A DNA stretch of 64,000 nucleotides from Pontiella agarivorans (GCF_034531395.1 NZ_JARVCO010000007.1:248001-312000), one strand, 5' to 3'; shown: positions 8,475-53,215, numbered from the stretch's first letter. Notes: generated from the letters alone by a model not told the origin. Numbers and translations are program-made.

Positions 8475-9997
8475 GTACGGTAGAAATTGTTCAGAAACTA
8501 TGGAATCTATGCGATGTGCTGCGGGATGACGGGATTACCTATCACCAGTATGTCACCGAGCTGACCTATCTGCTGTTTCTGAAAATGGCCAAGGAAACCG
8601 GTCAGGAAAAAAATATTCCCGAAGGGTATCGCTGGGACGATCTGACCAAGCTGCAGGGAACTGATCTGAAGAAATTTTATGAAGAGCTGCTGCGCCACCT
8701 TGGGGGAGAAAAGTCCAAAGGACGCATCAAGGAAATCTATGCCAATGCCCGAAGTGACATTCAGCATCCGGCCAACCTCGCCAAGCTGATTTCCGAGCTG
8801 AACAAACTCGATTGGTATGAAGCGAAGAAAGAGGGTCTCGGCGACTTGTATGAAGGGCTGCTCCAGAAAAACTCGGAAGAGAAAAAGTCGGGAGCCGGAC
8901 AATATTTCACACCACGCCCCCTGATTGATTCCACGGTAAGGTTGATTCAGCCCGAATTGGGCGAACGCTGCTTTGACCCGGCGGCCGGAACCTTTGGGTT
9001 CATGATTGCCGCCAATCAGTATGTGGAGTCGAAATCAAACAAGTTTGAGTGGTCGGCGGCCCAGCGGGACTTTCAGCGGAAGAAAGCCTTCTCCGGCGTC
9101 GAGCTGGTGCAGGATGCGCATCGTCTGGCGCTCATGAATGCCATGCTCCACGATATTGAAGGCGAACTGCTGCTGGGTGATTCGCTCTCCAGCAGAGGGG
9201 AAAAGCTGAAAGACTATGATGTCATCCTGACCAACCCTCCCTTTGGCAACAAAAAAGGCGGGGAGCAGCCTTCGCGCACGGATCTGACCTATCCCACGTC
9301 CAACAAACAGCTCAACTTTCTGCAGGTGATTTACCGGTCACTCAGGAAGAATGGAAAATCGCGGGCAGCCGTTATTGTGCCGGACAACGTGTTGTTCGAG
9401 GCCGGAGCGGGCACAAGCATTCGCCGCGACCTGATGGACAAGTGCAACCTGCATACCATCCTGCGGCTGCCGACCGGAATTTTCTATGCGCAGGGCGTGA
9501 AAACCAATGTGCTGTTTTTCACGCGCGGAAAAACCGAAAAGAACAATACAAAGAGGGTGTGGGTCTACGACCTGCGTTCCAACATGCCCAGCTTTGGTAA
9601 ACGCACCCCGTTCGGCGATGCCCATCTTGCCCCCTTCGAAAAGGTCTATGGCAAAAAGGCTGATGGTTCCAGTGTTCGGAAAGAAGGGGAATGGAGCTTT
9701 CTCCCGGACGATGTGGAGCAGACCGAGGAGAATTCCCGCTGGCGCTGTTTTTCCAGGGATTGGATCCGCGACACCAAAGGCGACTCGCTCGATATTTCCT
9801 GGATCAAAGACAGCGACAGCGTCGACGCCGCCAACCTGCCCGAACCCAACGAACTCGCCGCCGAAGCCATGGGAGAGCTCACCGAGGCCCTGCGCGAACT
9901 CGATGGTCTCATGTCCGCCCTCGGATGCGCCGATGAAGCCGATGCCCAGAAAGCCCTGCTCGCCGAAGTCCTCGGCCTCGGAGGCGCAGAAGCATGA
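8471..9997 (+). CDS. hsdM: Type I DNA methyltransferase M subunit
   Basis: This 508-residue N6-adenine methyltransferase has the HsdM_N helical domain, then SAM motif I FDPAAGTFGFM (about 167) and catalytic motif IV NPPFGNK (about 254). With HsdS it methylates the recognition site, protecting host DNA, and it forms the core of the restriction complex. It overlaps hsdR by four bases and precedes hsdS by about 70 bp with a small hairpin between. Length and motifs are normal. Confidence 0.95.
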   Translation: MSTVEIVQKLWNLCDVLRDDGITYHQYVTELTYLLFLKMAKETGQEKNIPEGYRWDDLTKLQGTDLKKFYEELLRHLGGEKSKGRIKEIYANARSDIQHPANLAKLISELNKLDWYEAKKEGLGDLYEGLLQKNSEEKKSGAGQYFTPRPLIDSTVRLIQPELGERCFDPAAGTFGFMIAANQYVESKSNKFEWSAAQRDFQRKKAFSGVELVQDAHRLALMNAMLHDIEGELLLGDSLSSRGEKLKDYDVILTNPPFGNKKGGEQPSRTDLTYPTSNKQLNFLQVIYRSLRKNGKSRAAVIVPDNVLFEAGAGTSIRRDLMDKCNLHTILRLPTGIFYAQGVKTNVLFFTRGKTEKNNTKRVWVYDLRSNMPSFGKRTPFGDAHLAPFEKVYGKKADGSSVRKEGEWSFLPDDVEQTEENSRWRCFSRDWIRDTKGDSLDISWIKDSDSVDAANLPEPNELAAEAMGELTEALRELDGLMSALGCADEADAQKALLAEVLGLGGAEA

Positions 9998-10015
9998 TGG
10001 CTTGTAAAAAAGTAG

Positions 10016-10034
10016 AACGGGCGTCCCGCCCGTT
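10016..10034 (+). promoter_or_regulatory. Intercistronic hairpin between hsdM and hsdS
   Basis: An 8-bp perfect stem AACGGGCG/CGCCCGTT with a TCC loop, not followed by a T-tract, lies between the M and S genes. It may stabilise or partly block the transcript and set the M:S ratio; that is inference. Confidence 0.4.
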
Positions 10035-10066
10035 TATCCACGCTCGGCCGAATGTTGAGGTGGCGA

Positions 10067-11632
10067 ATGAGTGATGTGTCTATGCCCGAAGGATGGGCTA
10101 TATCAAAACTATCCGATGCCATTGCAGTGGACGGCGTCATTTCTGATGGAGATTGGGTTGAATCAAAAGATCAGGATCCGAATGGTGATGTTCGTCTGAT
10201 TCAATTGGCTGATATTGGTGATGGCGATTTTAGAAACAAGTCTAAGCGATTTATGACACCTGAAAGCGCAGATCGTCTAAATTGTACATACCTTGAAAAG
10301 GGGGATGTGTTGATTGCACGTATGCCAGATCCATTGGGACGTGCATGTCTATTTCCAGGCGTTGGACAGAAGGCTGTTACCGTTGTTGATGTTTGTCTTA
10401 TTCGGACTGGTGAAAACTCAGCTTTTTCAAATGACTTTCTTAAATACTGGATCAATACACCTGACATAAGAAATCTAATTGAAGCCAACGCTTCTGGTAC
10501 TACTCGAAAAAGAATAACTCGAAAAAAGTTGGAAGCTTTCGAATATCCCCTCCCCCCGCTGGCGGAGCAGAAAGAGATTGCGTTGCGGCTGGATGATTTA
10601 CTGGCGCAGGTGGACTCGATCAAAACCCGCCTCGACGGGCTCCCCGCCATCCTGAAACGCTTCCGCCAATCCACCCTCGCCGCCGCCACCTCCGGCAAAC
10701 TCACCGAGGAGTGGAGGGAGGAGAACAGCGGTAATGATAGTCTTAGGGAATACATTAAGGATTTAGAAGCTAGCCGCTTTGAGCATTGGAAGAAAATGCG
10801 GCTGGTCGAATTTGAACGGAAAGGAAAGACACCAGCTGACGACAAATGGCTTGCGAGGTACAAACCGGTCCGAGTGGATGAAGGGTTGCAAGGCATTCCT
10901 GATGTGTGGGAAGTGGAGCGTCTTGATTTCATCGCAGATGTAATAGACCCAAATCCCAAGCATAGGAATCCAAGATATTTCGATAAAGGATTCCACTTCA
11001 TATCGACCGCGCAGTTTGATGGAACTGATGGATTTGATTTAAGTAAGTGCCGGTTTGTGGCTAAAGAAACAATCGACGAACAAGGTGCTCGGTGCCGTTT
11101 TGATAAGAGAAGTATCGCGTTCTCTCGTAAAGGAACGATTGGCCATACAAGAATACTAGAACTAGACATCCCATTTGCATTGCTGGATTCCTTATGCGTG
11201 ATTAATTGTGATGCCGTTATTTCGAACAAATATCTCAACTATGTCCTTCGGGGGCCGCTCGTTGCTGGGCAGGTTGTTGAGAAGACTAAGGGGGTGGCGC
11301 TCAAGCAGGTGAGTGTCGGCGGTGTTCGAGAATTGTTAATTCCTCTCCCGTCTGTAGAAGAACAAACCGAAATCGTCCGACGAGTGGAGGAGCTATTTGC
11401 CTTTGCGGATCAGGTGGAGCAGCGGGTGAAAGAAGCGCAGGCGCACGTCAACCACCTCACCCAATCCATCCTCGCCAAAGCCTTCCGCGGCGAACTCACC
11501 GAGCAATGGAGGCGCGAAAACCCCGACCTAATAACCGGCGAAAACTCCGCCGCCGCCTTATTGCAGCGCATCAAAACCGAACGCGAAAAACTCACCCCTA
11601 AAAAGAAGCCTCGAAAAAGGAGAAGTCCTTGA
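10067..11632 (+). CDS. hsdS: Type I specificity subunit S
   Basis: The 521-residue protein has two target recognition domains (about 1-165 and 265-430), each followed by a conserved helical repeat: LPPLAEQKEIALRLDDLL... and LPSVEEQTEIVRRVEELF..., both ending with a GKLTEEWR/GELTEQWR block. HsdS decides the bipartite DNA target. Start MSDVSMPEGW was taken because GAGGTGG lies just upstream; an ATG at 10052 has no such site. The recognition domains are visibly AT-richer than the conserved repeats, a sign of domain swapping. The target sequence cannot be predicted here. Confidence 0.92.
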   Translation: MSDVSMPEGWAISKLSDAIAVDGVISDGDWVESKDQDPNGDVRLIQLADIGDGDFRNKSKRFMTPESADRLNCTYLEKGDVLIARMPDPLGRACLFPGVGQKAVTVVDVCLIRTGENSAFSNDFLKYWINTPDIRNLIEANASGTTRKRITRKKLEAFEYPLPPLAEQKEIALRLDDLLAQVDSIKTRLDGLPAILKRFRQSTLAAATSGKLTEEWREENSGNDSLREYIKDLEASRFEHWKKMRLVEFERKGKTPADDKWLARYKPVRVDEGLQGIPDVWEVERLDFIADVIDPNPKHRNPRYFDKGFHFISTAQFDGTDGFDLSKCRFVAKETIDEQGARCRFDKRSIAFSRKGTIGHTRILELDIPFALLDSLCVINCDAVISNKYLNYVLRGPLVAGQVVEKTKGVALKQVSVGGVRELLIPLPSVEEQTEIVRRVEELFAFADQVEQRVKEAQAHVNHLTQSILAKAFRGELTEQWRRENPDLITGENSAAALLQRIKTEREKLTPKKKPRKRRSP

Positions 11633-11703
11633 GTTATAAAATAAGAGGTGAGTTTGGGCCGGAAAAGGTGGAGGCTCAGCTCGGAAAGTTCCCGGCGGGT
11701 TAG
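11629..11703 (+). CDS. Possible 24-residue ORF coupled to hsdS
   Basis: TTG at 11629 overlaps the hsdS stop as TTGA and lies behind AAGGAG with normal spacing. It encodes MSYKIRGEFGPEKVEAQLGK plus four residues before TAG. No family is recognised. It may be the 5' stub of a gene lost from the operon or a small peptide. The ribosome site and overlap support translation; a role does not follow. Confidence 0.3.
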   Translation: MSYKIRGEFGPEKVEAQLGKFPAG

Positions 11704-11713
11704 TCTTGACCAT

Positions 11714-11729
11714 TTAACCTTTAAGTTAA
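11714..11729. promoter_or_regulatory. Inverted repeat upstream of the toxin gene
   Basis: TTAAC-CTTTAA-GTTAA lies four bases before the higB start, with TTGACC at 11706. Toxin-antitoxin operons are commonly self-repressed at such short palindromes by the antitoxin; assignment here is inference. Confidence 0.4.
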
Positions 11730-11732
11730 ACT

Positions 11733-12134
11733 ATGACGTTGTCTCTTCACATTCTGAAAGAAACTAAGCAACTCACAATCTGCGCGATTGGTGATGGGCA
11801 GCAGGTACGGGTTCTTGATTTTCTTGAGGAAATGCAACAGAAAAGACCGAAGGAAGTGAGTAAAATGGCAGCCTTGTTGGACCGTGTGGTGGAGCATGGC
11901 ATTCCGAAAGACAGGCAAAAATGTCGTACTTTGGGCAATAAGCTCTATGAGTTTAAGACCCCGGGCGGGTTGCGCATCGTGTGGTTTTGGGATGAGGGAA
12001 AAATGGTGGTCTGCACGCATGGATTTAGCAAATCAACCCGAAAGACCCCTCGTGGCCAAATCGAGCGCGCCCTTTCTATGAAGGCGGATTATTTTGAAGC
12101 CAAGTCTAAGGGAACGCTTCAGCAGGAGAATTAG
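11733..12134 (+). CDS. higB: HigB/RelE-superfamily toxin (Gp49-like)
   Basis: This 133-residue protein matches phage-derived Gp49/HigB toxins: a central KCRTLGNKLYEFKTPGGLRIVWFWDEGKMVVCTHGFSKSTRKTPRGQIERA block with the basic and aromatic residues of RelE-fold mRNA interferases. Such toxins cleave mRNA at the ribosome. It comes before its antitoxin, the HigBA order, with a two-base gap. Together with the SecB-like gene it forms a tripartite module. Confidence 0.85.
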   Translation: MTLSLHILKETKQLTICAIGDGQQVRVLDFLEEMQQKRPKEVSKMAALLDRVVEHGIPKDRQKCRTLGNKLYEFKTPGGLRIVWFWDEGKMVVCTHGFSKSTRKTPRGQIERALSMKADYFEAKSKGTLQQEN

Positions 12135-12136
12135 GT

Positions 12137-12556
12137 ATGAATGCAAGTGATCGGTTTAACGCGATTCAGGAACAAGCTCGAGAAACGGATACCTATTGGG
12201 TTGAAAAGGCAATTATTGAGTGCACGGAAGAGATGGTTGCCCGAATGGAGGATGCTGGACTCAATCGTTCGGAGCTGGCCCGTCGTCTGGGTAAAAAGCC
12301 TGCTTTTGTCACAAAGTTATTGCGCGGAAATAACAACTTTACCTTTGAAACTGCGGTAAAGATTGCCCGTGCGCTGGACACGGAATTTGTGCCTCATTTG
12401 CGCCCCAAGGGATGGAAAACCCAATGGATGGATTACTCTCCGCCGAAACCGGAGGAATCCCCAATTCCGCTCAACTTGAAAAAGCAGGAGTATGGCCAGG
12501 ACGTTAGTGCCGTAGCAACTGGAGACGAAAATGAAACCTTCGCCCTTACAGCTTGA
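12137..12556 (+). CDS. higA: HigA-type antitoxin with C-terminal extension
   Basis: The protein of 139 residues has an XRE-type helix-turn-helix (LNRSELARRLGKKPAFVTKLLRG, about 45-67), which should bind the toxin promoter. After the DNA-binding part there is a polar, proline-rich tail of about 40 residues (PPKPEESPIPLNLKKQEYG...). In toxin-antitoxin-chaperone systems such a tail is the chaperone addiction region that makes the antitoxin depend on SecB-like partner binding. The 3' end overlaps the chaperone gene by 26 bp. Confidence 0.85.
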   Translation: MNASDRFNAIQEQARETDTYWVEKAIIECTEEMVARMEDAGLNRSELARRLGKKPAFVTKLLRGNNNFTFETAVKIARALDTEFVPHLRPKGWKTQWMDYSPPKPEESPIPLNLKKQEYGQDVSAVATGDENETFALTA

Positions 12557-26038: not shown

Positions 26039-26479
26039 ATGGACCACCTGACACCAGAACAGCGCAGCGAAAACATGCGCCGCATCAAGGGGAAACATAC
26101 CAAACCCGAATTGTTCGTCCGGTCACTGCTTCACCAGGCCGGTTATCGGTTTACGGTCAACGGCCCGAAGAACAGGAAACTGCCGGGTAAGCCCGATATT
26201 GTGCTGCCGAAATATAAAGCCGTCATTTTCGTGCACGGCTGCTTCTGGCACCGCCATCCAGGCTGCAAAGGAAGCACCACGCCCAAAACCCGAACTGAAT
26301 GGTGGCAGGCTAAATTTGACCGCAATGTTTCCAATGATCGGAAAAATCAGAAAAGGCTCAAAGAAATGGGCTGGAACGTTGTGGTGGTCTGGGAATGTGA
26401 ATTAAGGAATCCTCAAAAGGTGATCCGGAAGTTGACCCGATGCCTCAGCGCTCTTTTTTGGGAACCGCCCCCTTCATAA
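26039..26479 (+). CDS. vsr: Very short patch repair endonuclease Vsr
   Basis: This 146-residue protein matches Vsr throughout: RSENMRRIKGKHTKPELFVRSLL, LPGKPDIVLPKYKAVIFVHGCFWHRHPGC (catalytic Asp, His residues and zinc ligands) and WNVVVVWECEL. Vsr nicks T:G mismatches formed when 5-methylcytosine deaminates, so it belongs with the cytosine methyltransferase at 31517. Start at MDHLTPEQRSENM. It converges on the DUF2357 gene and overlaps its 3' end by 35 bp, which could link their expression. Confidence 0.93.
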   Translation: MDHLTPEQRSENMRRIKGKHTKPELFVRSLLHQAGYRFTVNGPKNRKLPGKPDIVLPKYKAVIFVHGCFWHRHPGCKGSTTPKTRTEWWQAKFDRNVSNDRKNQKRLKEMGWNVVVVWECELRNPQKVIRKLTRCLSALFWEPPPS

Positions 26480-28706
26480 ACGTGTTGAGGGGAATGCCTT
26501 TTTTCGGAACAGGAGACCCGCGCCGGTCATCAATACCTTCAATTTTTTTCAGATCCCAGTCATACGCCGCAAGAGGGTCGCACCTATCCAATGGTTCTAC
26601 ATCAAACATAAGGTAACAGTATTGTGAAGGATTCCCGGGATAATCATTCTTAATGAGATCTTCTTTTGAAAATATACGCGGTCCCTCGCCCGTAATCTTG
26701 AACAACGTTCCACCGCTCCGGAATTCACCGGCCCCATGCAACAGTAGATAAGAAGCCCCGGAAACGGAATGGTGCAGACGCAACGATCCGCGCCGTTCTC
26801 CGGTTCTGAAATTATAAAGTCCGGATTTCAGCACCCAAGCTAGATTCTCGTCACCATTATGCCATCCGTGAATTACAAAAATCTCTTTTGCAGGAGCCAT
26901 CCGTCCGGATTCATCTCTTTCCGGAACAGCTTCACGTACAGCGTCCGGCGGATCGTCCTTGTGAATCCGGTAGGTATGATAGGTCTGTTGTTCGCGCTGG
27001 GTTGCCCGGTTGCACACATGAGCCACCACCTCTTTCAGAAAGCGCTCAAGAGCAACGGAGCCATCGTCTGGATTATTGGGGCGCAGTGGAAATGCGCCCA
27101 AGCCGGGCAACAGTTCATGGAAGCCACGAAAAGGCATTTGTTCCTTTTCGTTTCCGGGGTAAAGCACATAGGCTCCCGCCGAACGTCGAATAGCATCGCG
27201 GTAGGCATGCATTTTCAATAGGTCGCCGCGCTTGTAATTTCCTGCTCTTTGGGCCGCTTTTTCCTCATCTAAATTCTCGTTCTCTCCACCGAACAATTTC
27301 GTGAGACTGTCCACCTTGTATTTTGCGTCAAAGTGAACATGTGTAATCAGTTCCTGTTCTTCGGCTTCATCCTGCGTAAAGCCATCCGGCCAGAGCGAGA
27401 GCGTATAGTCCGGGCGCATCTGACGGCTCCACGAGCCCCCGGCTGGATAATCTTTTTTACCGCCAAAGGTCCGGTTATAGCTGAACTCGACTGAAAGGGG
27501 GCGGCCTGCGCCTCGGTAGATCCCTTCAATGGGCAGTTGTTTTCCGGCCTTCAGCTTCAGCACCAGATCCTTGTCGTTAATCAAATTCTCGACCGGCGTT
27601 TTTTTCAGTTCAAACAAACCGGACACCAGATCCAGCAGTTTGAAAAAGACCCAGTATTCGTAAAGGGCCGCCACATCACGCTTGCCGCCTTCATACACAT
27701 CATCGCCGCCGTCCCAGCTTAGTCTGGCTGCCAGTTCAAACAACATCCAGGCCCGCAGCACCTGACGGTACCCTTCCTTGCGCTGAAGCACCGGACTGTT
27801 AAGCGGCAGCAGTTCGGGTTGTGATACCTGTTTGAACATATCGTGCGAAAGAGTTTCCTCCAGATCCTCCAACAGCATGGTGATTTCAGAACGGAGTCCC
27901 GGATACATCTCATCGCCCTGAGCCGTAAGTCTTGCGATCAGATCTTCCAAGGTCTGGAAAAACAGAATCAACGTATGTTTCACAAAGCGGTTTTCCGGCG
28001 TATCCACCGTATCCCGCTTATCACGGATTTCAATTCGCTTGGGAATCGTTTCCATCGTATCGCGCAACGGATGCCCGGCCGGCACTTCCATGCGCCGTCC
28101 GGCCGAAGCAAGCTGGCGGACTTCATACCGTCCGAGCCGACGGCTTCGGTGCACATCGATGGTTCGGAATTCTTCACGCCACTGCGTATTCGGCATAGTG
28201 ACAATCCGCTGAATCGCCTGCTGAAAATCTTCACCACCCAGCAGGCTCTTCAGAAAATAGAGCCGCTGCGCCAGCGTGGCTTCCGTCAGTCCATCAGGAA
28301 TGAGCGGCTGTTCAACAGGAGATTCCAGCTGCAGCAGGAAATCGGCACAGCGATCCGCGATATTCTCCAGCATCGAGCGGTATTCATCTTCATAACCCAG
28401 TTTTGTTGAACGGATATCGATATGCGTCGTCGAAACCGTTACCCCGGTCTCCTTGTCAAGAAGCTCCAGCTTCAGCAGTCCGACATAATTGCCCGGCTCA
28501 ATCCGGCCCCGTTCGTTGTCGTGATGAATCCGGCTGTGAGTAATCACGCGCGGGACCTCCTTCAACGAAAAGCGGGGTGAGTCCAGTTCATATTCATACC
28601 GTCCGTTTTCGGTCAGCGATGTTATTCCAGCCTCGCCGAACACAGTCATCCGCGCCAGAGGCTCACGGCTTCCTGATTTAAAATTAATTGACAGTTCACT
28701 GCTCAT
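26445..28706 (-). CDS. DUF2357 / PDDEXK_7 nuclease, McrC-like partner
   Basis: The 753-residue protein has a DUF2357-type region in the N-terminal half (TVDTPENRFVKHTLILFFQTLEDL) and a nuclease core with MRPDYTLSLWP and HVHFDAKYK, the D...DxK pattern of PDDEXK_7. These proteins are the nuclease partners of McrB-like NTPases in modification-dependent restriction. The C-terminal 200 residues (from about HVCNRATQREQQTYH) are not recognised. It is the last gene of the leftward operon, 121 bp from the gene before it, and has a weak ribosome site. Confidence 0.82.
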   Translation of the reverse strand: MSSELSINFKSGSREPLARMTVFGEAGITSLTENGRYEYELDSPRFSLKEVPRVITHSRIHHDNERGRIEPGNYVGLLKLELLDKETGVTVSTTHIDIRSTKLGYEDEYRSMLENIADRCADFLLQLESPVEQPLIPDGLTEATLAQRLYFLKSLLGGEDFQQAIQRIVTMPNTQWREEFRTIDVHRSRRLGRYEVRQLASAGRRMEVPAGHPLRDTMETIPKRIEIRDKRDTVDTPENRFVKHTLILFFQTLEDLIARLTAQGDEMYPGLRSEITMLLEDLEETLSHDMFKQVSQPELLPLNSPVLQRKEGYRQVLRAWMLFELAARLSWDGGDDVYEGGKRDVAALYEYWVFFKLLDLVSGLFELKKTPVENLINDKDLVLKLKAGKQLPIEGIYRGAGRPLSVEFSYNRTFGGKKDYPAGGSWSRQMRPDYTLSLWPDGFTQDEAEEQELITHVHFDAKYKVDSLTKLFGGENENLDEEKAAQRAGNYKRGDLLKMHAYRDAIRRSAGAYVLYPGNEKEQMPFRGFHELLPGLGAFPLRPNNPDDGSVALERFLKEVVAHVCNRATQREQQTYHTYRIHKDDPPDAVREAVPERDESGRMAPAKEIFVIHGWHNGDENLAWVLKSGLYNFRTGERRGSLRLHHSVSGASYLLLHGAGEFRSGGTLFKITGEGPRIFSKEDLIKNDYPGNPSQYCYLMFDVEPLDRCDPLAAYDWDLKKIEGIDDRRGSPVPKKGIPLNTFMKGAVPKKER

Positions 28707-28827
28707 AAGCCGAATAAACTATAAAAACTGAGGCATTGACTGCCCCCGCAACCTGTGCAACATTGCCTGCGGACTGGGAATACTCGGTCGGCAGGCATTT
28801 CTGGAAACGGAAATGTCTGTTTGCTTT

Positions 28828-29577
28828 TCAGGGGAACACCTTCCATCCGGAAATCCCTCCGTTTCGATATACCTTCCGGGTCACAATATCATATGCCCGG
28901 TTCTCCTGTGCGGGTTGCAGAATGTGCCGGGCACAGGGATGCGCGCAGAGATCCGCAAGCTGAACCCCCGCAATATTGTCAAACTTCCTGCGAAAGACCA
29001 GCGGACAGTCCAGCACCTTGAAGCGCTCCCCTCGAATGAAATCGGTTCCGTTCACCATCATCCGGTAGAAACTTCGTTCCAGCGCCTGATCTTCGTTTTT
29101 TCCTCTGGCCTCCGCCACAAAAGGCAACTCCTGAATCCTCTTGTCTTCAATAAAATGAATAAGGCGCTCCAGCGTAAACTTCAGGGCCAAATCATATGGG
29201 TTGACCGCATTGGCGCCATATCTGCTTCTGTGATGATCCTTGCGCACTGCGGATATAAACACCGTATAAGGGAGATCCTTCATGAGTTCTGACAGTTCGG
29301 TCATGAACGCCTGACGTTTCCCTGCCACTCGAAGAAATCCGAAGGGGCCCTTCGATTTTCGAATATCGCGACTGTGCAGATTCACGCCTTCATGGATCCA
29401 GTATTTCAACTTCAACCGGGTAATTTCCGGAACCACACGTTCCGCATAATCCGTTCGCTTGATCACGATCGTTGCCAAAAGAAAAAGCGGGAAGTCGCGG
29501 TCGATCAGCTCCAGTGTATGATCACCGCACTCATCGAGAAAAGCGATGTATTCCGATGTTCCTCCGACATTCCGCAT
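28828..29577 (-). CDS. DUF3800 domain protein
   Basis: This 249-residue protein opens with IAFLDECGDHTL (the DUF3800 FxDESG-like motif, here DECGD) and contains GVNLHSRDIR and a late NIAGVQLADLCA segment. The acidic residues and RNase H-like layout suggest a nuclease-type fold, but no activity is established. DUF3800 proteins are frequent in defence loci. It sits six bases downstream of the EVE-McrB gene and before the DUF2357 nuclease, splitting a usual McrB-McrC pair. Confidence 0.8.
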   Translation of the reverse strand: MRNVGGTSEYIAFLDECGDHTLELIDRDFPLFLLATIVIKRTDYAERVVPEITRLKLKYWIHEGVNLHSRDIRKSKGPFGFLRVAGKRQAFMTELSELMKDLPYTVFISAVRKDHHRSRYGANAVNPYDLALKFTLERLIHFIEDKRIQELPFVAEARGKNEDQALERSFYRMMVNGTDFIRGERFKVLDCPLVFRRKFDNIAGVQLADLCAHPCARHILQPAQENRAYDIVTRKVYRNGGISGWKVFP

Positions 29578-29583
29578 AGAATC

Positions 29584-31491
29584 CTACGCCTCCGCAAAGC
29601 TGGCGAATCCATGCTCGGCCAGACGTTTGCGCATGCGAGCCAGTTTTTCAAGTGATCCGGGATAGAGCGCATTTGCGGCGATCAGATCCTCATCTTTTAC
29701 CGGGGTGTCCATTTTTTCAGGCCGGGCCTCTTCTTTAAGGCAATGCCAGATTAAAACCGTCAGCACCGGGCCCAGCTTTTTCTTCGACCCGTGCAGCTTT
29801 GGCAACAGCTTCTGCATGATCGCGGTATCCATTGCCGTCTCTAATTTCCAATCCTTGGAAGTGAGCTCCTTGTGAAAATAAACAAAGCGGCAGATTTCGT
29901 GGGCGGTGCGGTAACCGAATTCTGCGCCAGCCGCTTTCAGCGGCGGGAAAAATGCCATCAACACCTTCGATACTGCTGCACGGGTGGTATCGTCTAAAGA
30001 AACATCCTTCTGTTTCGCCGCCGCCACAAACGCTTTGCCGTATGCCGCTCCCTGCCCGGCAATCGCATCCAGATCCGGTTTCGCCGGATTGGCGAGGAAT
30101 GATTCCATCTCGTCTTCCGAAACACGGAATTCAATTACGTTGGCGCGGTCCAATACCTTCGGACTGAACATGTAGGTGGTTTCGTCCACGTTGACCGTGC
30201 CGATTACAAAAAGGTTTTTTGGAATCGTCAGTTTAGCCGGCACGCCGTTCCAATCTGCTCCTGTATCATCGTGCAGGCTGATCGCCTCGCCCGACTCCAT
30301 CGCCGAAAGAAAGTCCGCAAAATAGCGCTCCACATGGGAAAGGTTCATTTCATCCAGAATCAGAAAATAGGGATTTTCCGGATCAGCCTGCGCCCGCAGA
30401 ATCAGGTCCAGCGCTCCATTGTCCGGCTTGCGGTAACTCTTCGGCTTCAGCGCATCCGGATATCCGAGCAGGTTTTCATTGCTCGTCCAATCCGCGCCGA
30501 CCGAGATAATTTCGTATTGCAAAGGGCCGGTCTTTCGCTCTCCTGAGTCAGGAAGCTCCAGAACAGCATCTCCCAGCTTCTTCAGCTCAGTGTAAAAACC
30601 GTGGATATATTTCTGGTAGGAAGAACTTTCGCCAACGGTATGCCGCGTGTTCTTTGGATCTTTATCCGCATCAATAACACCGTTCTTCAACGCCAGATAC
30701 CACTCCTCTATCGCGCCGACCGGCAACGGTATTATTTTCCCCGAATTCCCCCGCTTATTCACCAACTCAACCGTCTGGGGGGAACAACTGTGTACATCGT
30801 AGTTTTCAACGATTATTTCTGAGACTAATGCCCGCTTCAGCTTTTCATAGAACAAGTCCGCTTTATTCGGACAAATCCACTTTGCAAATGAAAGCGCCTG
30901 AAGTGTTTTTCCTGATCCGGACAGTCCGGTTAGAATTAGAAATGGTTTGGCCTGCAGTGCGGAGGCCACCCCTGAAAAATCCGACAACTTCTTGTGACGA
31001 AGTGCCGATGTAAAAAGAGCGTCATCGTCACTCAATTCACCGAAGTCAAAATTTCCGTACTCATTATAAAGTGCAGCAAGAGCTTTTATCCCCGCAGGTT
31101 TTTCATAGCTCGATATCGCCTGCGTCGGAAAGTGGTTTGCTCCAATATAGGGGATTTCATAAATATCAGGAGCGAAACGGCTATGTGTCCTCGCCGCTTT
31201 AGGAGGAATGGAGGAATCCAAAACATTAAGCGGCTGAACTTTGATCTTAAAATTTTTGGGCTTCGCTGGATCGTAACCTTTGTCGAACGGTGCTGTGGTG
31301 ACCTTGCCAACGCCACGGACACCCTGATCCCACGAAATCTGCGCCTTGTCCCCTCCAAAATATATTATGATAGGATCACCAACCCGAAGCTGGCCTTCAA
31401 AGTTGTAGATACCATCGTGAACAAATTCATTTCCTGCAACAACCTGATCAACGACATGCTGATCCGTTATTTTAATAATATAGATTTTCAC
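29584..31491 (-). CDS. EVE-domain McrB-like AAA+ NTPase
   Basis: This 635-residue protein has an N-terminal EVE/PUA-like region (about 1-130: MKIYIIKITDQHVVDQVV...DPIIIYFGGDKAQISWDQGVRGVGKV), a fold that reads modified bases. A McrB-type AAA+ motor follows: Walker A LTGLSGSGKTLQAL (about 185), Walker B LILDEMNLSHVERYFADFL, and the sensor-like FVIGTVNVDETTYMFSPKVLDRANVIEF. McrB motors translocate DNA and recruit a McrC-type nuclease when the reader finds modified DNA. Start is GTG at 31491. It is encoded beside a cytosine methyltransferase, an unusual pairing. Confidence 0.85.
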   Translation of the reverse strand: MKIYIIKITDQHVVDQVVAGNEFVHDGIYNFEGQLRVGDPIIIYFGGDKAQISWDQGVRGVGKVTTAPFDKGYDPAKPKNFKIKVQPLNVLDSSIPPKAARTHSRFAPDIYEIPYIGANHFPTQAISSYEKPAGIKALAALYNEYGNFDFGELSDDDALFTSALRHKKLSDFSGVASALQAKPFLILTGLSGSGKTLQALSFAKWICPNKADLFYEKLKRALVSEIIVENYDVHSCSPQTVELVNKRGNSGKIIPLPVGAIEEWYLALKNGVIDADKDPKNTRHTVGESSSYQKYIHGFYTELKKLGDAVLELPDSGERKTGPLQYEIISVGADWTSNENLLGYPDALKPKSYRKPDNGALDLILRAQADPENPYFLILDEMNLSHVERYFADFLSAMESGEAISLHDDTGADWNGVPAKLTIPKNLFVIGTVNVDETTYMFSPKVLDRANVIEFRVSEDEMESFLANPAKPDLDAIAGQGAAYGKAFVAAAKQKDVSLDDTTRAAVSKVLMAFFPPLKAAGAEFGYRTAHEICRFVYFHKELTSKDWKLETAMDTAIMQKLLPKLHGSKKKLGPVLTVLIWHCLKEEARPEKMDTPVKDEDLIAANALYPGSLEKLARMRKRLAEHGFASFAEA

Positions 31492-31516
31492 GACTCCACC
31501 CCCTGAATAGCTTTAT

Positions 31517-32809
31517 TCACGTTATATCACGCGCAACTGACTCAATCGTCGAAGATCCCATTTTTTCAAGGACTTCATCCACTGTCTCAAAATCGCCAAT
31601 ATTGCTACCGCCTTTGACTTCACTATATGACTCGCCGGCCATTGTTTTCAGAACCGCCTCGAAAATAACCTTCGCCCCTTTAGGCGGCACGGCCATTCCG
31701 ATTTGCTTTCTTATGCTCTCCTTTGAACCACAGAAGAAATGATCATCATCAAATGTTTGAATACGGGCTCTTTCACGGTTGGTAAGAGCTCTGTCTTTGG
31801 CCCAATGATAACCATGTGTTCCACCGCCGCCACTTCCGGTAATCGTGTATGCAGGGCGGGAGGGATCCAAACGCCGGTATATCTGACTCATTCGCGCCGA
31901 CTTTACATTCAATCTTACCGCGTCAAGTTTTTCCCGTATGGACTGATTATCACTGAAATCCACATCCGGAACCTTTGCTATAATTTCCGGATGATTTTTA
32001 TAAAAAGATACCAACGCTTCTTTTCCGGATGAATCATCATCCAAAGTACGCAGTTCATCAATAAACCATGCATTTTTGTCTGGAGGCAGCATTTTCAATC
32101 GTTCCACAACAGCGGTGGATTGTCTGGTCAGCTCCTGGTTTGGGGCATCCTCAGGGATCGGAGGGGATTCTAATGCTTCCTTGGCACTAACAGGAGATTC
32201 GGTTGTGATTGCCGGAACTATGAATTTTTTTTCCAAATCCTTTCGAATTCCAATGATGATTACCCTGTGCCGGGTTTGCGGAACCCCATATTTTTCAAAT
32301 TTGTACAGGTGCGCGCTTAAATTGTAACCCTTGCCGGCTTCAATCAAATCACAGAGAATTTTTATAAAAGCCTGACCGTCGTTCGCGTTCCGCAAGCCTC
32401 CGACATTTTCGGCTAAAAACCAATCGGGGTTTTTGGCATTTATAGCCTTAACTCCGTTGGTGTACAGCGGTCCATATGAACCATCAACACCTTTCTGCTC
32501 TCCAACAATGCTGAAGTCGTTACAGGGAAAGCCGAAAGCCAGCGCATCAAAGTCCGGCACATCCTGCTCAAAATCAACCTTCCGGACATCACCGCATATT
32601 ACCTGCTCGTCTTTCTTTTTCAGAGGTTCATCGGGATCAATACCGTGGATATTTTTCAGGTAGGTATCGCAAGTATCCCGGTCAATATCGTTGGCCCAGA
32701 TCGGATCAATAGAAAACACATTGCCCGATTTCGTTTTTACAATAGATTTTTTAGCGGCGGAGCCTAAACCCCCAGGGCCGCAGAATAATTCAGCTAGTTT
32801 ATATTTCAT
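31517..32809 (-). CDS. DNA (cytosine-5) methyltransferase
   Basis: The protein of 430 residues has motif I LAELFCGPGGLG, motif IV FGFPCNDFSIVG (catalytic Cys in PC), motif VI WFLAENVGGL, motif VIII QTRHRVIIIG, and motifs IX-X ending ERARIQTFDD...QIGMAVPP. It transfers a methyl group from SAM to cytosine C5. Start at MKYKLAELFC; a longer frame to 32851 has no support. The target is unknown. Genomic Vsr at the operon end fits a 5mC product prone to deamination. Confidence 0.92.
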   Translation of the reverse strand: MKYKLAELFCGPGGLGSAAKKSIVKTKSGNVFSIDPIWANDIDRDTCDTYLKNIHGIDPDEPLKKKDEQVICGDVRKVDFEQDVPDFDALAFGFPCNDFSIVGEQKGVDGSYGPLYTNGVKAINAKNPDWFLAENVGGLRNANDGQAFIKILCDLIEAGKGYNLSAHLYKFEKYGVPQTRHRVIIIGIRKDLEKKFIVPAITTESPVSAKEALESPPIPEDAPNQELTRQSTAVVERLKMLPPDKNAWFIDELRTLDDDSSGKEALVSFYKNHPEIIAKVPDVDFSDNQSIREKLDAVRLNVKSARMSQIYRRLDPSRPAYTITGSGGGGTHGYHWAKDRALTNRERARIQTFDDDHFFCGSKESIRKQIGMAVPPKGAKVIFEAVLKTMAGESYSEVKGGSNIGDFETVDEVLEKMGSSTIESVARDIT

Positions 32810-32884
32810 ACCTATTTTAATAGCATGGCCAGCATGGGGTTTGCAGCCCAAAGGTTGAGATATTTCAGAGTATCAAGCAATTCG

Positions 32885-33622
32885 CTATGACTCGTCATAG
32901 AGCCAGCTGTCGAAGTCCTCGGGAAGTAGGCTCACGATTGACTCGGAATTCATAGAATACAGGTCATAGGTAAGCTCAAATTGATTGATGACTTGAACAA
33001 ACCGGCGAAGGGATCCTTTTTTGGTCAGCACCTTCTTTTTATCATCGATGCCTTTTTTTACCCGGTCCAGGTTTTTGTCGTAGTACAGTAAGTCAAGAAC
33101 CTCGACAATCGATGGATTGCTGATCAGTTTTTGCCTTGAAACCACTTCTTCGTTGATATTTCCGGGTTTAGTCAGATCACTGACCAACAGAACCCGCCCT
33201 GTCATTCTGTGGGTTTTATAAATCATAAACGGGATTTTAAGCAGATGCCTATGGGCGCCTTTCCCGAATCCGCCGGACGGAATGTATCTGTAATCCTGAC
33301 CTGGACTGCGCAGGCCCTTCCCATTGGCCGGACATACCTGATCAAAAAAGAAAAGGCTCAACCAGGCCCACATTCCGGTATTTTCCAGTTCACTATCACT
33401 GACTAAGCCCAGAGCTTCGAAAAGATACTTCCCGGCATCCAACCTGGTACTGAAAGCAACAGTATCCTCGACTGTGGCATATCCATCTACAGATATGGTG
33501 AGCGCAGTGTCATCTAACAAACTGATGGGAATATCCTTTCCAGGATCGGATTTCAAATCATAAAGATAATCCCTGAAAAGCTGTATTCCTTTATCGTTGA
33601 GGGCTTTGACGATCTTTTTCAT
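32885..33622 (-). CDS. Unrecognised 245-residue protein of the GHKL-Dcm operon
   Basis: I recognise no family with certainty. The protein is soluble, with a mixed N-terminal part and a helical, basic C-terminal part (VKKGIDDKKKVLTKKGSLRRFVQVINQFELTYDLY). The centre has aromatic-rich segments (GMWAWLSLFFFDQVCPAN, HRHLLKIPFMIYKTHRM). Its ATG shares a base with the stop of the upstream gene (TAATG), so the two are translated together. It sits between the GHKL-associated protein and the methyltransferase and is probably an essential part of that system. Confidence 0.7.
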   Translation of the reverse strand: MKKIVKALNDKGIQLFRDYLYDLKSDPGKDIPISLLDDTALTISVDGYATVEDTVAFSTRLDAGKYLFEALGLVSDSELENTGMWAWLSLFFFDQVCPANGKGLRSPGQDYRYIPSGGFGKGAHRHLLKIPFMIYKTHRMTGRVLLVSDLTKPGNINEEVVSRQKLISNPSIVEVLDLLYYDKNLDRVKKGIDDKKKVLTKKGSLRRFVQVINQFELTYDLYSMNSESIVSLLPEDFDSWLYDES

Positions 33623-34416
33623 TAATCTAACTCCAGCAACCCTGATATTCTCTGCATTATTCTTTGGTTTCGACAGAAGCCATCAACACTCTTTTCTATC
33701 CATTCTATGCTCAATTCCTCGTTCAGGTCCTTACGAGGCCACTTCTCGTTGCATAAAGTCTTTCCATAAAGAAGCCACCTGTACTGCCAGTCAGGAGTCT
33801 CATCATTCGGATCGGGGTCCTGCAGCGTGTAGTCCTCTTCGCAATAAATAAGAATATACGAGAGGATCTGTCTTACGATCTCCGGATAAACAGCGCAAAA
33901 AAACATGTCGTCTGACCTTAACAATGTCTGAACATTAGGAATCTTAGAGTTCACTTTCAACCAAGGCATATCCGAAGCCTCCAGGTCCAGTTCCCAAATT
34001 CGGTTTCCCAGATCCTCTTCATTAACACCAATAAGACTCATCCTATTGGCGGTGCGCTCCTCTTCACTTATAGCGCTAACACCTTCAGCAAGTGCGAGGA
34101 TTTTCCCATGCATCGCACTCTCATCAACAATTTTGACCCGGAACCGAATATCCTGAAGATCGGCAGGTGTAAAGGCATCAAGTGCCCGGTTGTCAGGGGG
34201 CAATATATTAGAAACGGTTCCATACGAAAACCGGTTATATTTGGTGCGATGATACGCCTCAACGTATATGGCGGCGTCATGCGGAAGATCATCCTTGTAT
34301 GTGTCAATCGTGATATCCGCGTCAAGATGGGGAATACCGCCGATGTACGTCACGCTCACCCGGAGATCAGTACGCTTGATTTTAATTCGGTCGGTATAAT
34401 TAAATTTCCTGATCAT
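33622..34416 (-). CDS. Unrecognised 264-residue protein following the GHKL ATPase
   Basis: No named family is assigned. The first half looks beta-rich (LRVSVTYIGGIPHLDADITIDTYKD, AAIYVEAYHRTKYNRFSYGTV), like a beta-sandwich adaptor. The second half is mixed, with EERTANRMSLIG and a C-terminal helical stretch. Start MIRKFNYTD was chosen because AAGGAGG lies six bases upstream; it overlaps the GHKL gene by 17 bp. Tight coupling on both sides suggests a stoichiometric partner of the ATPase. Confidence 0.68.
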   Translation of the reverse strand: MIRKFNYTDRIKIKRTDLRVSVTYIGGIPHLDADITIDTYKDDLPHDAAIYVEAYHRTKYNRFSYGTVSNILPPDNRALDAFTPADLQDIRFRVKIVDESAMHGKILALAEGVSAISEEERTANRMSLIGVNEEDLGNRIWELDLEASDMPWLKVNSKIPNVQTLLRSDDMFFCAVYPEIVRQILSYILIYCEEDYTLQDPDPNDETPDWQYRWLLYGKTLCNEKWPRKDLNEELSIEWIEKSVDGFCRNQRIMQRISGLLELD

Positions 34417-36337
34417 CTTCATCCTCCTTAGCGGGAACAACCTGGACGACAAGGTCCCGATTGATATCGAAACCAGTCACCTTTATTTCAAACTCAGGAT
34501 CCGTAACATTGACTAGCAGTATATTGTCCAAACATTTAACCAGCTCGATACCAGAGTGTTCGATATCAATGGGATTTTTGTTTAGACGAAAATCAAGCGG
34601 GCTGTATTTTCTAAGATGATTTCCCGATGGCACCCGGTATGCTACATTAATCGTTATGGTCTTTGGCGTATGGGTAGCACTTCTATCTCGGGTTACCGTA
34701 AATCCGTTTTCGGATTTATACGTCCGAATCATTCTCGTTTTCGGTTCCGGTGGGTCTGCGGGGGGAGGATTAATCTCAGGTTTTTTCTTCGGTCCCGGCT
34801 TTTTCTTGCTTCCGGCTGGAAGTGCACTGAGATCAAGATGGAAAATATCTCTCAGCAGATCACGGTTCTGCTCTATATTCTTTTTTGAAATCTTTCTCCA
34901 GATGTCGTGAGGGGCCTTCTTGACGAATCCGATACTCTTCTCACCGCGGTCATAGAGTTCGAGCAGATCTTCATTATTGCGCTGCTCCCATCGGTCATGG
35001 GCGGGCGGCTCGGAGACTCGTAACAGTTTCCCCAGCAATTTGTCATGTATTTCGACAAGTGCGATACAGCCAGCATCCAGCTTACTGTTCTTATTCGCAT
35101 TCTTAACATCAATACCTTGCCGGATATATTTGGCTGGAATACGGTTAGCTACATCAGTCTGAGTAAAGCAGACGTCAAATTCGCCCCGCGCAGGTGATCC
35201 TTCCTTGGTTTTTACTCGCACAGGAACACGGATTAAAACCTTGCCATTAAGCTCGAGAGATCCACGGATGTCGCTCAGCATGTCATCGGTAAGGTTTATA
35301 CCGCTCAAAGACGGAATCTTATATAAATCAGGATCCTCTAAGACAAAAATATCCTCTTCGGGCACTTCTGAACTCCAAATTGCAAGATCGATGGTTTTGA
35401 GCAACATTTCGTCCCCTGACAAATATTGCTGCGCGACTTCTTTAATAGTGTTATTTGTAATAATGATTTCATCACATCCGTCGTAGCGAAGGTATACTTT
35501 CAGCCGACCGCGGATTACTGGATAAAAGTAATCCTTCAGTACGGATTCAACCAAGGGCCCCGGGGCCATAAGCTCAGGCTTAGGAAAGGGTATTACTACG
35601 GATAGACCGGACTGTTCGGCCCGGGTTATATCAAAAATATTTTCAAATTGATCAAGCTGTTCTGAAGCTTCAAACGGAACGGCGAAAAATCCATCTCCCT
35701 TGATTTCTCCAAAATAACCGTAGGGGGCGTATTTCTGCCTGTTATGATGGTGGATTTTCAAAATCGATTTCCCCATCAGCAGTTTCCTTCCGTCCTCCGA
35801 TCGGTTTGTCAGACCGAAGTATGTGTTGATTCTAGACGCTGCCGGAAAAACGTGCTTTCCTAGCCCCCAGCTTCCGAGTCCATCTTTTTTTCCGGAGCGA
35901 CCGATATTACGCCAAAAATAAAAGAAATCGTAAAATTCTTTGCTATCGGCCGGAATGGGGGTTTCATCGTCATCATACTCTGGGTCACCGTTCAGCCCCT
36001 TGGTTCCGAAATCCTCTGCCACAATATAATCGAGCACTTCCGTCCCCTTCGGAAGTTTTTCCCTCCGTAGCCCACTGTTCTCCGCTTTAAGGTGGGGATT
36101 CAATCCGTGCAGAGGCATCCCTTCAGCAATCAGATCTGAGTATTTCACATTCGATGTTTTATAACTGATAACGACTTCTGCAGTGCCGTCTTTATCCAGC
36201 CTAGCATCAAGGGAATTCTGAATGGCCTCTCTGACAAGTATCTCAGAAAGATCCCCGATTTCTTCAGACGCAAAGAATTCGCCCTGTATGGGGTCGACAC
36301 TGTCTTCCCCTTTGATCATTCTCCTGAACTTCCACAT
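34400..36337 (-). CDS. GHKL (HATPase) ATPase of a restriction-type operon
   Basis: This 645-residue protein has the GHKL ATP-binding elements in order: N-box VREAIQNSLDA (about 36), DFGTKGL in the G1 position (about 109), and GSWGLGKHVF as the G2 lid (about 154). After the ATPase it carries a long middle domain and, past a Pro/Lys linker (KKKPGPKKKPEINPPP), a beta-rich C-terminal domain. It resembles the MutL/MORC-like ATPases that Iyer, Abhiman and Aravind linked to restriction-modification operons. It may act as a DNA clamp. Start MWKFRRMIKG behind AGGTGA. Confidence 0.82.
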   Translation of the reverse strand: MWKFRRMIKGEDSVDPIQGEFFASEEIGDLSEILVREAIQNSLDARLDKDGTAEVVISYKTSNVKYSDLIAEGMPLHGLNPHLKAENSGLRREKLPKGTEVLDYIVAEDFGTKGLNGDPEYDDDETPIPADSKEFYDFFYFWRNIGRSGKKDGLGSWGLGKHVFPAASRINTYFGLTNRSEDGRKLLMGKSILKIHHHNRQKYAPYGYFGEIKGDGFFAVPFEASEQLDQFENIFDITRAEQSGLSVVIPFPKPELMAPGPLVESVLKDYFYPVIRGRLKVYLRYDGCDEIIITNNTIKEVAQQYLSGDEMLLKTIDLAIWSSEVPEEDIFVLEDPDLYKIPSLSGINLTDDMLSDIRGSLELNGKVLIRVPVRVKTKEGSPARGEFDVCFTQTDVANRIPAKYIRQGIDVKNANKNSKLDAGCIALVEIHDKLLGKLLRVSEPPAHDRWEQRNNEDLLELYDRGEKSIGFVKKAPHDIWRKISKKNIEQNRDLLRDIFHLDLSALPAGSKKKPGPKKKPEINPPPADPPEPKTRMIRTYKSENGFTVTRDRSATHTPKTITINVAYRVPSGNHLRKYSPLDFRLNKNPIDIEHSGIELVKCLDNILLVNVTDPEFEIKVTGFDINRDLVVQVVPAKEDEDDQEI

Positions 36338-36345
36338 CAGCTCAC

Positions 36346-36582
36346 CTATACTTTAAATTTAAACCCTGCCTGATCGGCCTTTCCGCGACTGTTGAAGCGG
36401 GATTCTAGATCGCGAACCTCCCGCTTTATTGCACCGAGGATCTGCTTAACATGCGCATCTGTATATTCATAATTAGATGTGCTGGAGAGGTTACCAATGA
36501 GTTGAATCCTCTTTATCACCTCATTAACCCGCTTTTCTGCGAGCTCCTCAAACTTCTCCATACGCTTACTTTTATTTTCCAT
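36346..36582 (-). CDS. Small helical protein, first gene of the defence operon
   Basis: The 78-residue, charged, coiled-coil-like protein (MENKSKRMEKFEELAEKRVN then EVIKRIQLIGNLSS) lies behind a strong AGGAGG seven bases from ATG. The middle YEYTDAHVKQILGAIKREVRDLE is amphipathic. Eight bases separate it from the GHKL gene. Small helical proteins of this kind are often seen before such ATPases, and it may be a regulator or assembly factor; its function is unknown. Confidence 0.7.
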   Translation of the reverse strand: MENKSKRMEKFEELAEKRVNEVIKRIQLIGNLSSTSNYEYTDAHVKQILGAIKREVRDLESRFNSRGKADQAGFKFKV

Positions 36583-36720: not shown

Positions 36721-37038
36721 GCTAAACCGGCAAAATTTGTCGGAATAGTTTTTCCAGACCACGTGAAACAGCAGGTCGCTTTGGTCGAGCTTGACCAGCT
36801 GCCCGAGATAGCGGTTTAACCGGCCCTTTTCGCCGAAGGTTTCGTGGACATCAAAGTCGCGGGCATAGATGGAATTGAAGGAGACCCAGAGCAGTATAAA
36901 ACGCGTGTCGATATCATCGGTTGCTTCGGCGGCCTGCAGCCAGCTGAGCCCCCGATGTATCCGCAGATTCGTGGGTTCGGGCAATCGCCAGCGCGATTCC
37001 CGATGTTTCAGCTTAAGATTTGTGTGGTTTAGTTTCAC
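36685..37038 (-). pseudogene. Truncated HEPN-like protein
   Basis: The frame of 117 codons carries RWRLPEPTNLRIHRGLSWLQAAEATDDIDTRFILLWVSFNSIYA, typical of the N-terminus of a HEPN-like family whose members are about twice as long. After LLFHVVWKNYSDKF the similarity to such proteins stops, and the frame ends in the AT-rich promoter of the GHKL operon. The 3' half appears lost through insertion or deletion at that border. HEPN proteins are often RNases in defence and toxin systems. Confidence 0.5.
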
Positions 37039-37226: not shown

Positions 37227-37634
37227 TTACTGCTTCAGCCAAACAATCGCCTTCAGCTTTTCTTCCAAGGGCTGGAACTCCGGATCACCGGTGACCAGTT
37301 CGGCCTTTTTGATTTTGGTCAGTGCCGCGGCATAAGCATCGGCCAACGACATTTTGTACTCGGCCTTAAATTCTGCCGCCGCTTCACTAAGTGCGAGATC
37401 CGCATCAATGATTTCAATGGGCAGATCGTGAAGATGGGTCTGAACGGTTTTCCATGCGTTGCGGCCCTGTGCACGGATCACCCGATACATGACCTCTGAC
37501 CAGTTAACCGTGGTGATAAAAATTCGTTTTTTATCCACCAGGGCCTTTTTGAAATACTCCGCCACCCGATCCGCATCGGATTCGTTGAAAATGAAAGAGA
37601 GCAGTGCAAAGCTGTCAAATACCGCGTTTTTCAA
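37227..37634 (-). CDS. vapC: PIN-domain toxin (VapC-like)
   Basis: The 135-residue PIN protein starts KNAVFDSFALLSFI (first acidic residue), has NWSEVMYRV (second) and SLADAYAAALTKIKKAELVTGDPEF (third and fourth), the Mg-binding set of PIN RNases. The best start is TTG at 37634, seven bases after GAGGAGG, inside the end of the antitoxin gene (20-bp overlap). VapC toxins cleave tRNA or rRNA. Confidence 0.87.
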   Translation of the reverse strand: MKNAVFDSFALLSFIFNESDADRVAEYFKKALVDKKRIFITTVNWSEVMYRVIRAQGRNAWKTVQTHLHDLPIEIIDADLALSEAAAEFKAEYKMSLADAYAAALTKIKKAELVTGDPEFQPLEEKLKAIVWLKQ

Positions 37635-37884
37635 TTTCAGCCTCCTCGCGGTCGATTTCTGCCGCATGTTCTTCTATCAGTTCCTGGGTCACCGGCTTTT
37701 CTCCGGCTTTGCGCTGCAGCATGCCCTGAATGGAATCGATATAGGCATCGGTGATCGGGCGCACCTCAAACGAACCTTTTTTTTGATCAAAAACCAATCG
37801 TGTCCCCGGCTTGATTCCCAGCTCTCTTCGGATTTTTGCGGGAATGACGACCTGCCCTTTAGCTGTCACAACTGCTGTAATCAT
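37615..37884 (-). CDS. vapB: AbrB-type antitoxin (VapB-like)
   Basis: This 89-residue protein has the swapped-hairpin AbrB/MazE DNA-binding domain (MITAVVTAKGQVVIPAKIRRELGIKPGTRLVF) and a charged C-terminal tail (TQELIEEHAAEIDREEAEIEKRG) that should wrap the toxin. It lies first in the two-gene operon and should repress it. Confidence 0.87.
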   Translation of the reverse strand: MITAVVTAKGQVVIPAKIRRELGIKPGTRLVFDQKKGSFEVRPITDAYIDSIQGMLQRKAGEKPVTQELIEEHAAEIDREEAEIEKRGI

Positions 37885-52831: not shown

Positions 52832-53182
52832 ATGAAAACACTGAAAATATATGATCCCGCGATGTGCTGTTCAACCGGAGTATGCGGTCCGGATGTCGAT
52901 ACCGAGCTGGTGCAGCTGGCCAACTTCCTGAAAAATCTCGATGCCTGTTCCGTAAAAGTGGAGCGCTATAACCTTTCTCAGGAACCGGCGGCGTATACCG
53001 CCGGCGTCGTTGCCGAAACGCTCAAAGAGAAAGGTACTGATGCCCTGCCGCTTGTCCTGATCGATGACGAAGTGATCAGCACTGGTGAATATCCGGACCT
53101 TGGAAAATTATCGGGCCTGCTCGGCACCTCCGAAATCTCAATGGAAATGCCCGACTGCTCCGGCTGCTGCGGGTGTGACTGA
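52832..53182 (+). CDS. arsD: ArsD arsenic metallochaperone
   Basis: The 116-residue protein has the invariant early cysteines (AMCCSTGVCGPDVD) with which ArsD holds As(III) and hands it to ArsA, and a thioredoxin-like fold. The C-terminus bears two more cysteine pairs (DCSGCCGCD). It lies directly before arsA, as usual. Confidence 0.93.
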   Translation: MKTLKIYDPAMCCSTGVCGPDVDTELVQLANFLKNLDACSVKVERYNLSQEPAAYTAGVVAETLKEKGTDALPLVLIDDEVISTGEYPDLGKLSGLLGTSEISMEMPDCSGCCGCD

Positions 53183-53215
53183 AATAAAAATTCGCTTCCT
53201 CTGTGAGGAGATTCA

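Follow-up and report, generated by a model that had tools for sequence, protein, structure and literature searches.

Motors of the McrB type that work alongside a methylase, and GHKL ATPases that neighbour one, have both been described before. In LlaJI, a C5-methylase system, McrB- and McrC-like subunits restrict unmethylated DNA (PMC1459862), and a census of CoCoNuTs found methylases linked to every branch of the McrB tree, the NxD branch among them, where such linkage is frequent (PMC11090510). The two reports document an arrangement in which an earlier note on the DNA described here had seen a self-recognition problem, so that this problem is neither new nor peculiar to the locus. Among GHKL ATPases, the paraMORC2 group is marked by an ExxxH signature late in the S5 region and has methylases and Vsr as reported neighbours, and a 2008 proposal holds that paraMORCs loop DNA between the sites of recognition and of cleavage (PMC2292703). 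We describe a locus of Pontiella agarivorans, analysed within a stretch of 64,000 nucleotides (the window), in which elements of both kinds occur in a single run of genes. The genome measures 4.4 Mb, and since near relatives in the sequence collections are listed under Lentisphaerae and Verrucomicrobiota, the phylum is probably Verrucomicrobiota.

Gene content and surroundings of the locus

Eight intact genes lie leftward with short gaps or overlaps, from 36582 to 26445, and are faced by a Vsr gene, an arrangement we can corroborate from the earlier note; no frameshift or stop interrupts any of them, and motor and nuclease alike retain open reading frames with catalytic motifs intact on direct reading. 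The first gene, s97 (36346..36582, minus strand, as are the seven that follow), encodes 78 aa from ATG 36582 with the ribosome-binding site AGGAGG; it matched no Pfam family, and an iterative profile placed it upstream of the GHKL gene at about 12 loci. After 11 bp comes a 645-aa GHKL ATPase (34400..36337), assigned to the paraMORC2 type by conserved motifs and by a profile match to PDC-M33A. It overlaps by 17 bp the gene for a 264-aa partner, u276 (33622..34416), which overlaps by 1 bp that for a 245-aa partner, u245 (32885..33622). In relatives, u276 sits beside GHKL and u245 beside u276, and by this they would occupy the PDC-M33B and PDC-M33C/DUF6339 positions, respectively. The C5-cytosine methyltransferase, Dcm (31517..32809; PF00145, E=5e-64), follows at 33 bp if read from the TTG at 32851, where its ORF opens, or at 75 bp from the better ATG at 32809, which homologues support. 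A further 25 bp separate it from a McrB-like AAA+ GTPase of the NxD type with a GTG start (29584..31491; PDC-M26A, solved McrB chains and motifs), whose residues 9-105 (31177..31467) form an EVE-like N-terminal domain. A DUF3800 gene (28828..29577; PF12686, 47.9 bits) begins 6 bp beyond McrB, and a 121-bp gap (28707..28827) then precedes the 753-aa McrC-like DUF2357-PDDEXK_7 nuclease (26445..28706; PF09823 and PF04411). The Vsr mismatch endonuclease (26039..26479, plus strand, ATG 26039; TIGR00632, 140 bits) converges on McrC and overlaps its 3' end by 35 bp. Matches to Vsr, DUF2357, PDDEXK_7, DUF3800 and DNA_methylase all exceed curated Pfam-type cut-offs.

It is plausible that all eight genes form one operon, although the 121-bp gap, which contains an inverted repeat, also has a terminator-like hairpin (28746-28730, minus strand); single-strand folding of the gap region was no better than that of shuffles (z -0.6). 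Promoter-like sites within the run are fewer than in shuffled sequence (9 versus 15.7), an uninformative result, and an Rfam search of the locus gave no match.

Just upstream of the operon lies a conserved gene cut short (36733-37038, minus strand), of which about the first 100 residues are left; intact homologues have about 217-224 aa (G009, G035), and the missing remainder was not found within the 64-kb window. In G009 (locus L159) the intact leader gene is directly followed by a MORC-Z1-DUF4420-AIPR-Dcm operon, the Dcm of which shares 45% identity with that of the window, suggesting that different restriction operons may be exchanged behind the same leader gene. Further upstream is a PIN-domain gene (37227-37667, minus strand; PF01850), possibly a toxin; PIN genes also adjoin GHKL at two related loci (L052, L056). 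To the same side of the operon are arsenic-related genes, namely an ArsP-type permease at 38711, a likely ArsR at 38086, recognised by eye, and ArsD/ArsA at 52832-55012. Elsewhere in the window is a further restriction system, a type I set of HsdR, HsdM and HsdS (5235-12556, plus strand), with RadC before it and a Gp49-like/HTH toxin-antitoxin-like pair after it.

A paraMORC2-type trio and its restriction neighbours

The residues E37, N41, D44, D109 and G160-K161 (GLGK) of the GHKL ATPase are kept in 87-88 of 89 sequences, the remainder being gaps, and E443xxxH447 (ExxxH) is present in 88 of 89. By these motifs the protein, which matched no PDB sequence, is assigned to the paraMORC2 type; the earlier label of MORC/MutL-like is here refined to that group. 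It also matches, partially, the PADLOC profile for subunit A of PDC-M33 (E=1.9e-17). Neither u276 and u245 nor their near relatives matched the profiles for subunits B and C, but PDC-M33 models do match at more distant loci where the genes are ordered alike (all three at L008, A and B at L011, A and C at L012). By position, and by profile for subunit A, the trio appears to represent the candidate PDC-M33 arrangement of PADLOC. For u276 a C2-like beta-sandwich with a helical end is predicted (AlphaFold2 pLDDT 90.9), and its fold search against the PDB gave weak C2-type matches without a confident relative; u245 is predicted to be mainly helical (pLDDT 94.5) and matched nothing in the same kind of search. 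No nuclease is therefore recognised in the trio.

Relatives of the GHKL ATPase numbered 199 among about 85,000 species genomes, and the loci of the best 80 of the 199 were read. Many of these come from short contigs, and there are several near copies among them (L053/L054, L024/L025); duplicate loci (L006 = L013, L003 = L032) are left out of the counts, gene calls in the relatives are mechanical, and paralogue and Dcm identities there were assigned by profile or BLAST similarity. Within this sample u276 adjoins GHKL at 68/80 loci and u245 comes next at 64/80, the missing cases often being ends of contigs or planctomycete GHKLs that stand alone. The latter (L075, L076, L077, L085 and similar loci), where neither partner was detected, have partly shared neighbourhoods and are possibly a housekeeping branch of the ATPase. 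At another locus, on a plasmid of Halomicrobium urmianum (L012), two GHKL copies, partner genes and a C5-methylase stand beside DUF1998, helicase and PLD genes, surroundings that resemble DISARM.

Of the best 80 GHKL loci, all from other genomes, 21 have a Dcm near the trio; Vsr is present at 19 of these 21, as against 1 of the 59 others. The restriction genes at the Dcm-bearing loci are varied. EcoRII is found at 7/21 (confirmed by Pfam EcoRII-C at one locus and called by sequence similarity at the others); L026 and L041 have a paraMORC1-like kinase with RR2, so named from their likeness to the TCS-like pair of PMC8011034 and not from a profile; L034 and L037 have a HATPase_c_3 (MORC-type ATPase) protein whose HSDR_N_2 end scores weakly, below cut-off; and at several others, for example L040, L050, L051, L055, L081 and L089, no restriction gene was recognised. 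Neither McrB nor McrC is present at any of the 21. The GHKL of L013, sister to that of the window, is accompanied by Dcm and Vsr without McrBC; L187 has the trio-Dcm order facing Vsr, as in the window minus the McrBC stretch; and at L186 a protein that looks DUF262-like by eye takes the place of McrBC. Among GHKL loci with long flanks, 20 of 31 have no methylase nearby, and the trio is accordingly not bound to one. Overall, a trio-Dcm-Vsr core recurs across many phyla with several different restriction genes or none recognised.

The McrBC genes and the adjacent methylase

Read directly, McrB has Walker A GLSGSGKT (189), Walker B FLILDEMN (376) and the signature NVD, by which it is of the NxD type; it matches solved McrB structures and PADLOC PDC-M26A, and carries an insert of about 100 aa (residues 216-316). 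McrC has the PDDEXK motif D...DAKYK, Dcm the motifs PCN, ENV, QTRHR and QIGMAVPP, and Vsr the motif D...HGCFWHRHPGC. EVE domains are modified-base readers, and the earlier note had taken the N-terminus of McrB for one; PF01878 scores 17.2 bits against the whole protein and 20.8 against the N-terminus alone, weak values below the cut-off of 23, and we keep to the term EVE-like. The domain had no relative in 388 genomes of the phylum or in plasmids. The nearest McrB cores, L125 and L126, share 62-87% identity across residues 346-580, and identity drops at the domain junction near residue 178, not within the motor; L125 and L126 are themselves 80-90% identical in the motor and 17% identical immediately before it. 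Wholly different N-termini between such close cores fit swapping of a recognition domain.

The third-position GC content shifts inside McrB near codon 237, from 0.47 before to 0.58 after (interval 165-320 on the whole operon, beyond all 300 permutations). This shift first suggested that trio, Dcm and reader had been imported as one block, a view weakened by a control comparison: in most McrB relatives, GC3 is likewise lower in the N-terminus than in the AAA core, so that the shift does no more than fit frequent N-terminus swapping.

Among 388 phylum genomes, 26 had McrBC relatives, as did 263 plasmids, with McrC beside McrB. The McrB genes stand repeatedly just behind a methylase, some with Vsr too (Deinococcus, Caballeronia and a same-class genome). 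In the phylum, one locus (G074/L128) has the order Vsr-Dcm-McrB-McrC, with an uncharacterised gene and then a Z1 helicase behind it, and four (L130, L133, L135, L137) have Dcm-McrB-McrC; McrBC occurs without a methylase at L125, L126, L134 and L136. At L129, McrBC faces a Dcm-EcoRII operon, and its McrB has an N-terminus that is EVE-like by eye, with no Pfam match. The 13 plasmid loci inspected have a same-strand methylase upstream of McrB in 7, a divergent one in 2 and none annotated in 4, by the records' own, incomplete annotation. Deinococcus gobiensis has C5-methylase-McrB-McrC-Vsr and Caballeronia Vsr-C5-methylase-McrB-McrC; Sinorhizobium, Roseibium, Mycobacteroides and Thauera have an adenine or unspecified site-specific methyltransferase before McrB-McrC, one small gene separating methylase and McrB on the Mycobacteroides plasmid. 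McrBs with MrcB_N (L126, L134, L199) have no adjacent methylase, and the methylase-adjacent McrBs that were scanned have neither MrcB_N nor EVE above cut-off. One plasmid McrB, annotated as EVE, stands behind an N6-methylase and is a precedent for the combination in the window. The trio was absent from the phylum McrBC loci read, and no DUF3800 gene lies between McrB and McrC at the other McrBC loci examined.

The methylase itself was tried as a guide to partnership and rejected, since it is only about 24-30% identical to the Dcms at most trio or McrBC loci; the Dcm tree leaves it unplaced. Its true kin, 45-61% identical, occur with varied restriction systems, among them AlwI-family, PLD/Z1 and MORC-Z1-AIPR partners. 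Near the nearest of these (61% identical, G328) lies a McrC-like C-terminal fragment (L184:10680-10958), hinting that the Dcm family may have sat beside McrBC before.

The trio and McrBC appear, from gene order, to be two recurrent sets, each independently linked with C5-methylase plus Vsr; in this locus a single such pair is common to both. The suggestion in the earlier note that two systems may have been joined gains from these comparisons, since each set recurs without the other and the gene-order search that it proposed never found the halves together in the sampled loci, an outcome that the note itself had named as speaking against a composite system; its dividing line, GHKL-Dcm against McrB-DUF2357, does not survive, as both sets include methylase and Vsr.

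Interpretation and comparison with known systems

We tentatively read the locus as a LlaJI-like restriction-modification system carrying a paraMORC2 accessory module, with a confidence that stops a little short of even. Dcm would place 5-methylcytosine on host target sites and so protect them; the N-terminal domain, swapped in, would let the McrB ring recognise this target where it lacks methylation or its state is wrong, after which the ring would translocate with GTP and deliver McrC, which would cut the incoming DNA; and Vsr would repair the T:G mismatches arising from deamination of 5-methylcytosine. The GHKL ATPase and its two partners would be an ATP-driven clamp or looping module serving the methylase-Vsr core, as it may serve with other nucleases elsewhere, and DUF3800 would be accessory. 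This reading draws on the order Dcm, McrB, McrC, with 25 bp between the first two; on the cassettes elsewhere in which a McrB of this family follows a methylase; on the restriction of unmethylated DNA by LlaJI subunits and the frequent methylase linkage of NxD McrBs, to which the NVD of the window corresponds; on the pairing of the Dcm family with ordinary restriction enzymes elsewhere; and on the segregation of reader domains, methylase-adjacent McrBs lacking MrcB_N and EVE above cut-off in our scans and MrcB_N McrBs lacking a methylase. In addition, the McrB/McrC core stays the same beside methylases of differing chemistry, as would be expected if the methylase is cognate and not if the motor always reads 5mC. 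Against it stand the EVE-like N-terminus, the nearest McrB cores (L125, L126) without an adjacent methylase, and the three loci (L013, L186, L187) that have trio and C5-methylase without McrBC, which imply that the Dcm of the window may belong to the trio and not to McrB.

The same observations bear on a reading of the locus as two layered systems, a trio-Dcm-Vsr restriction-modification module into which a modification-dependent McrB(EVE)-DUF3800-McrC set was inserted. The latter would tolerate the Dcm mark, much as E. coli McrBC tolerates CmCWGG, and would cut phage DNA bearing another modification or sequence context. We regard this as the main and close rival, only somewhat less likely than the first reading: the EVE-like N-terminus, the methylase-free nearest cores (one with an MrcB_N reader), the slot that is empty at L187, where trio and Dcm face Vsr, and filled by the DUF262-like protein (by eye) at L186, and the McrBC of L129, EVE-like by eye and beside a Dcm-EcoRII operon, all speak for it, whereas Dcm lies 25 bp upstream of McrB, in the order that methylase-McrBC cassettes free of the trio also show, and the EVE match remains under its cut-off. 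Closer coupling, with Dcm methylation licensing or inhibiting the motor or the trio gating McrBC by methylation state in a clamp-type control, seems quite unlikely, even though the GHKL module accompanies several different nucleases plus Dcm and Vsr, a GHKL domain has been proposed to control the fused nuclease of VcSduA (PMC12137116) and paraMORCs have been proposed to loop DNA (PMC2292703); the absence of a nearby methylase at 20/31 long-flank loci argues the other way. A broader form of this idea, in which the trio is a nuclease-independent clamp that reads methylation at Dcm sites and licenses whichever engine fills the slot (EcoRII, the MORC-type ATPase, the DUF262-like protein or, here, McrBC), is also unlikely; if true, the window would be the first case of the trio controlling a GTP-driven motor. 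That the genes lie together by chance within a defence island, with separate transcription and separate action, we consider very improbable. The type I genes in the same window (5.2-11.6 kb), the terminator-like hairpin ahead of McrC and a combination seen nowhere else in the sample would accord with it, but the short gaps and overlaps, the single direction and the independent ties of both sets to Dcm and Vsr do not.

Each component of the locus is already published, as are the association of methylase with McrBC and that of paraMORC with Dcm and Vsr. For the combination of trio and McrBC, and for DUF3800 between McrB and McrC, we found no earlier report or second example in the sets searched, absence there not being proof. 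The locus thereby joins two separately recurring restriction sets around one shared methylase, and offers a single system for asking about the role of paraMORC2/PDC-M33 modules and about which DNA, unmethylated or modified, is cut by EVE-McrBC motors linked to a methylase. With LlaJI-type systems it shares a C5-methylase upstream of a McrB-like GTPase and its PD-(D/E)XK nuclease partner in one gene run; LlaJI, whose R1 is McrB-like and R2 McrC-like, has two C5-methylases where the window has one, and the window adds the EVE-like N-terminus, DUF3800 between the restriction genes, the paraMORC2 trio and Vsr. The paraMORC2 restriction operons (Iyer, Abhiman and Aravind 2008) and PDC-M33 have in common with it the ExxxH GHKL, two small partners, and methylase with Vsr, but in the window the restriction slot is taken by McrBC, and the PADLOC models for subunits B and C fail to match its partners, which have diverged too far. 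EVE-McrBC type IV systems likewise combine a McrB AAA+ motor with an EVE-like N-terminus and McrC; the window differs from them in its adjacent C5-methylase and Vsr and in an EVE match below the Pfam cut-off, and its modification dependence is putative. The EcoRII-Dcm-Vsr-paraMORC2 loci (L053, L069, L071, L072, L090), finally, share the trio, C5-methylase and Vsr with the window, and differ in having EcoRII instead of McrBC and a methylase only distantly related to its Dcm.
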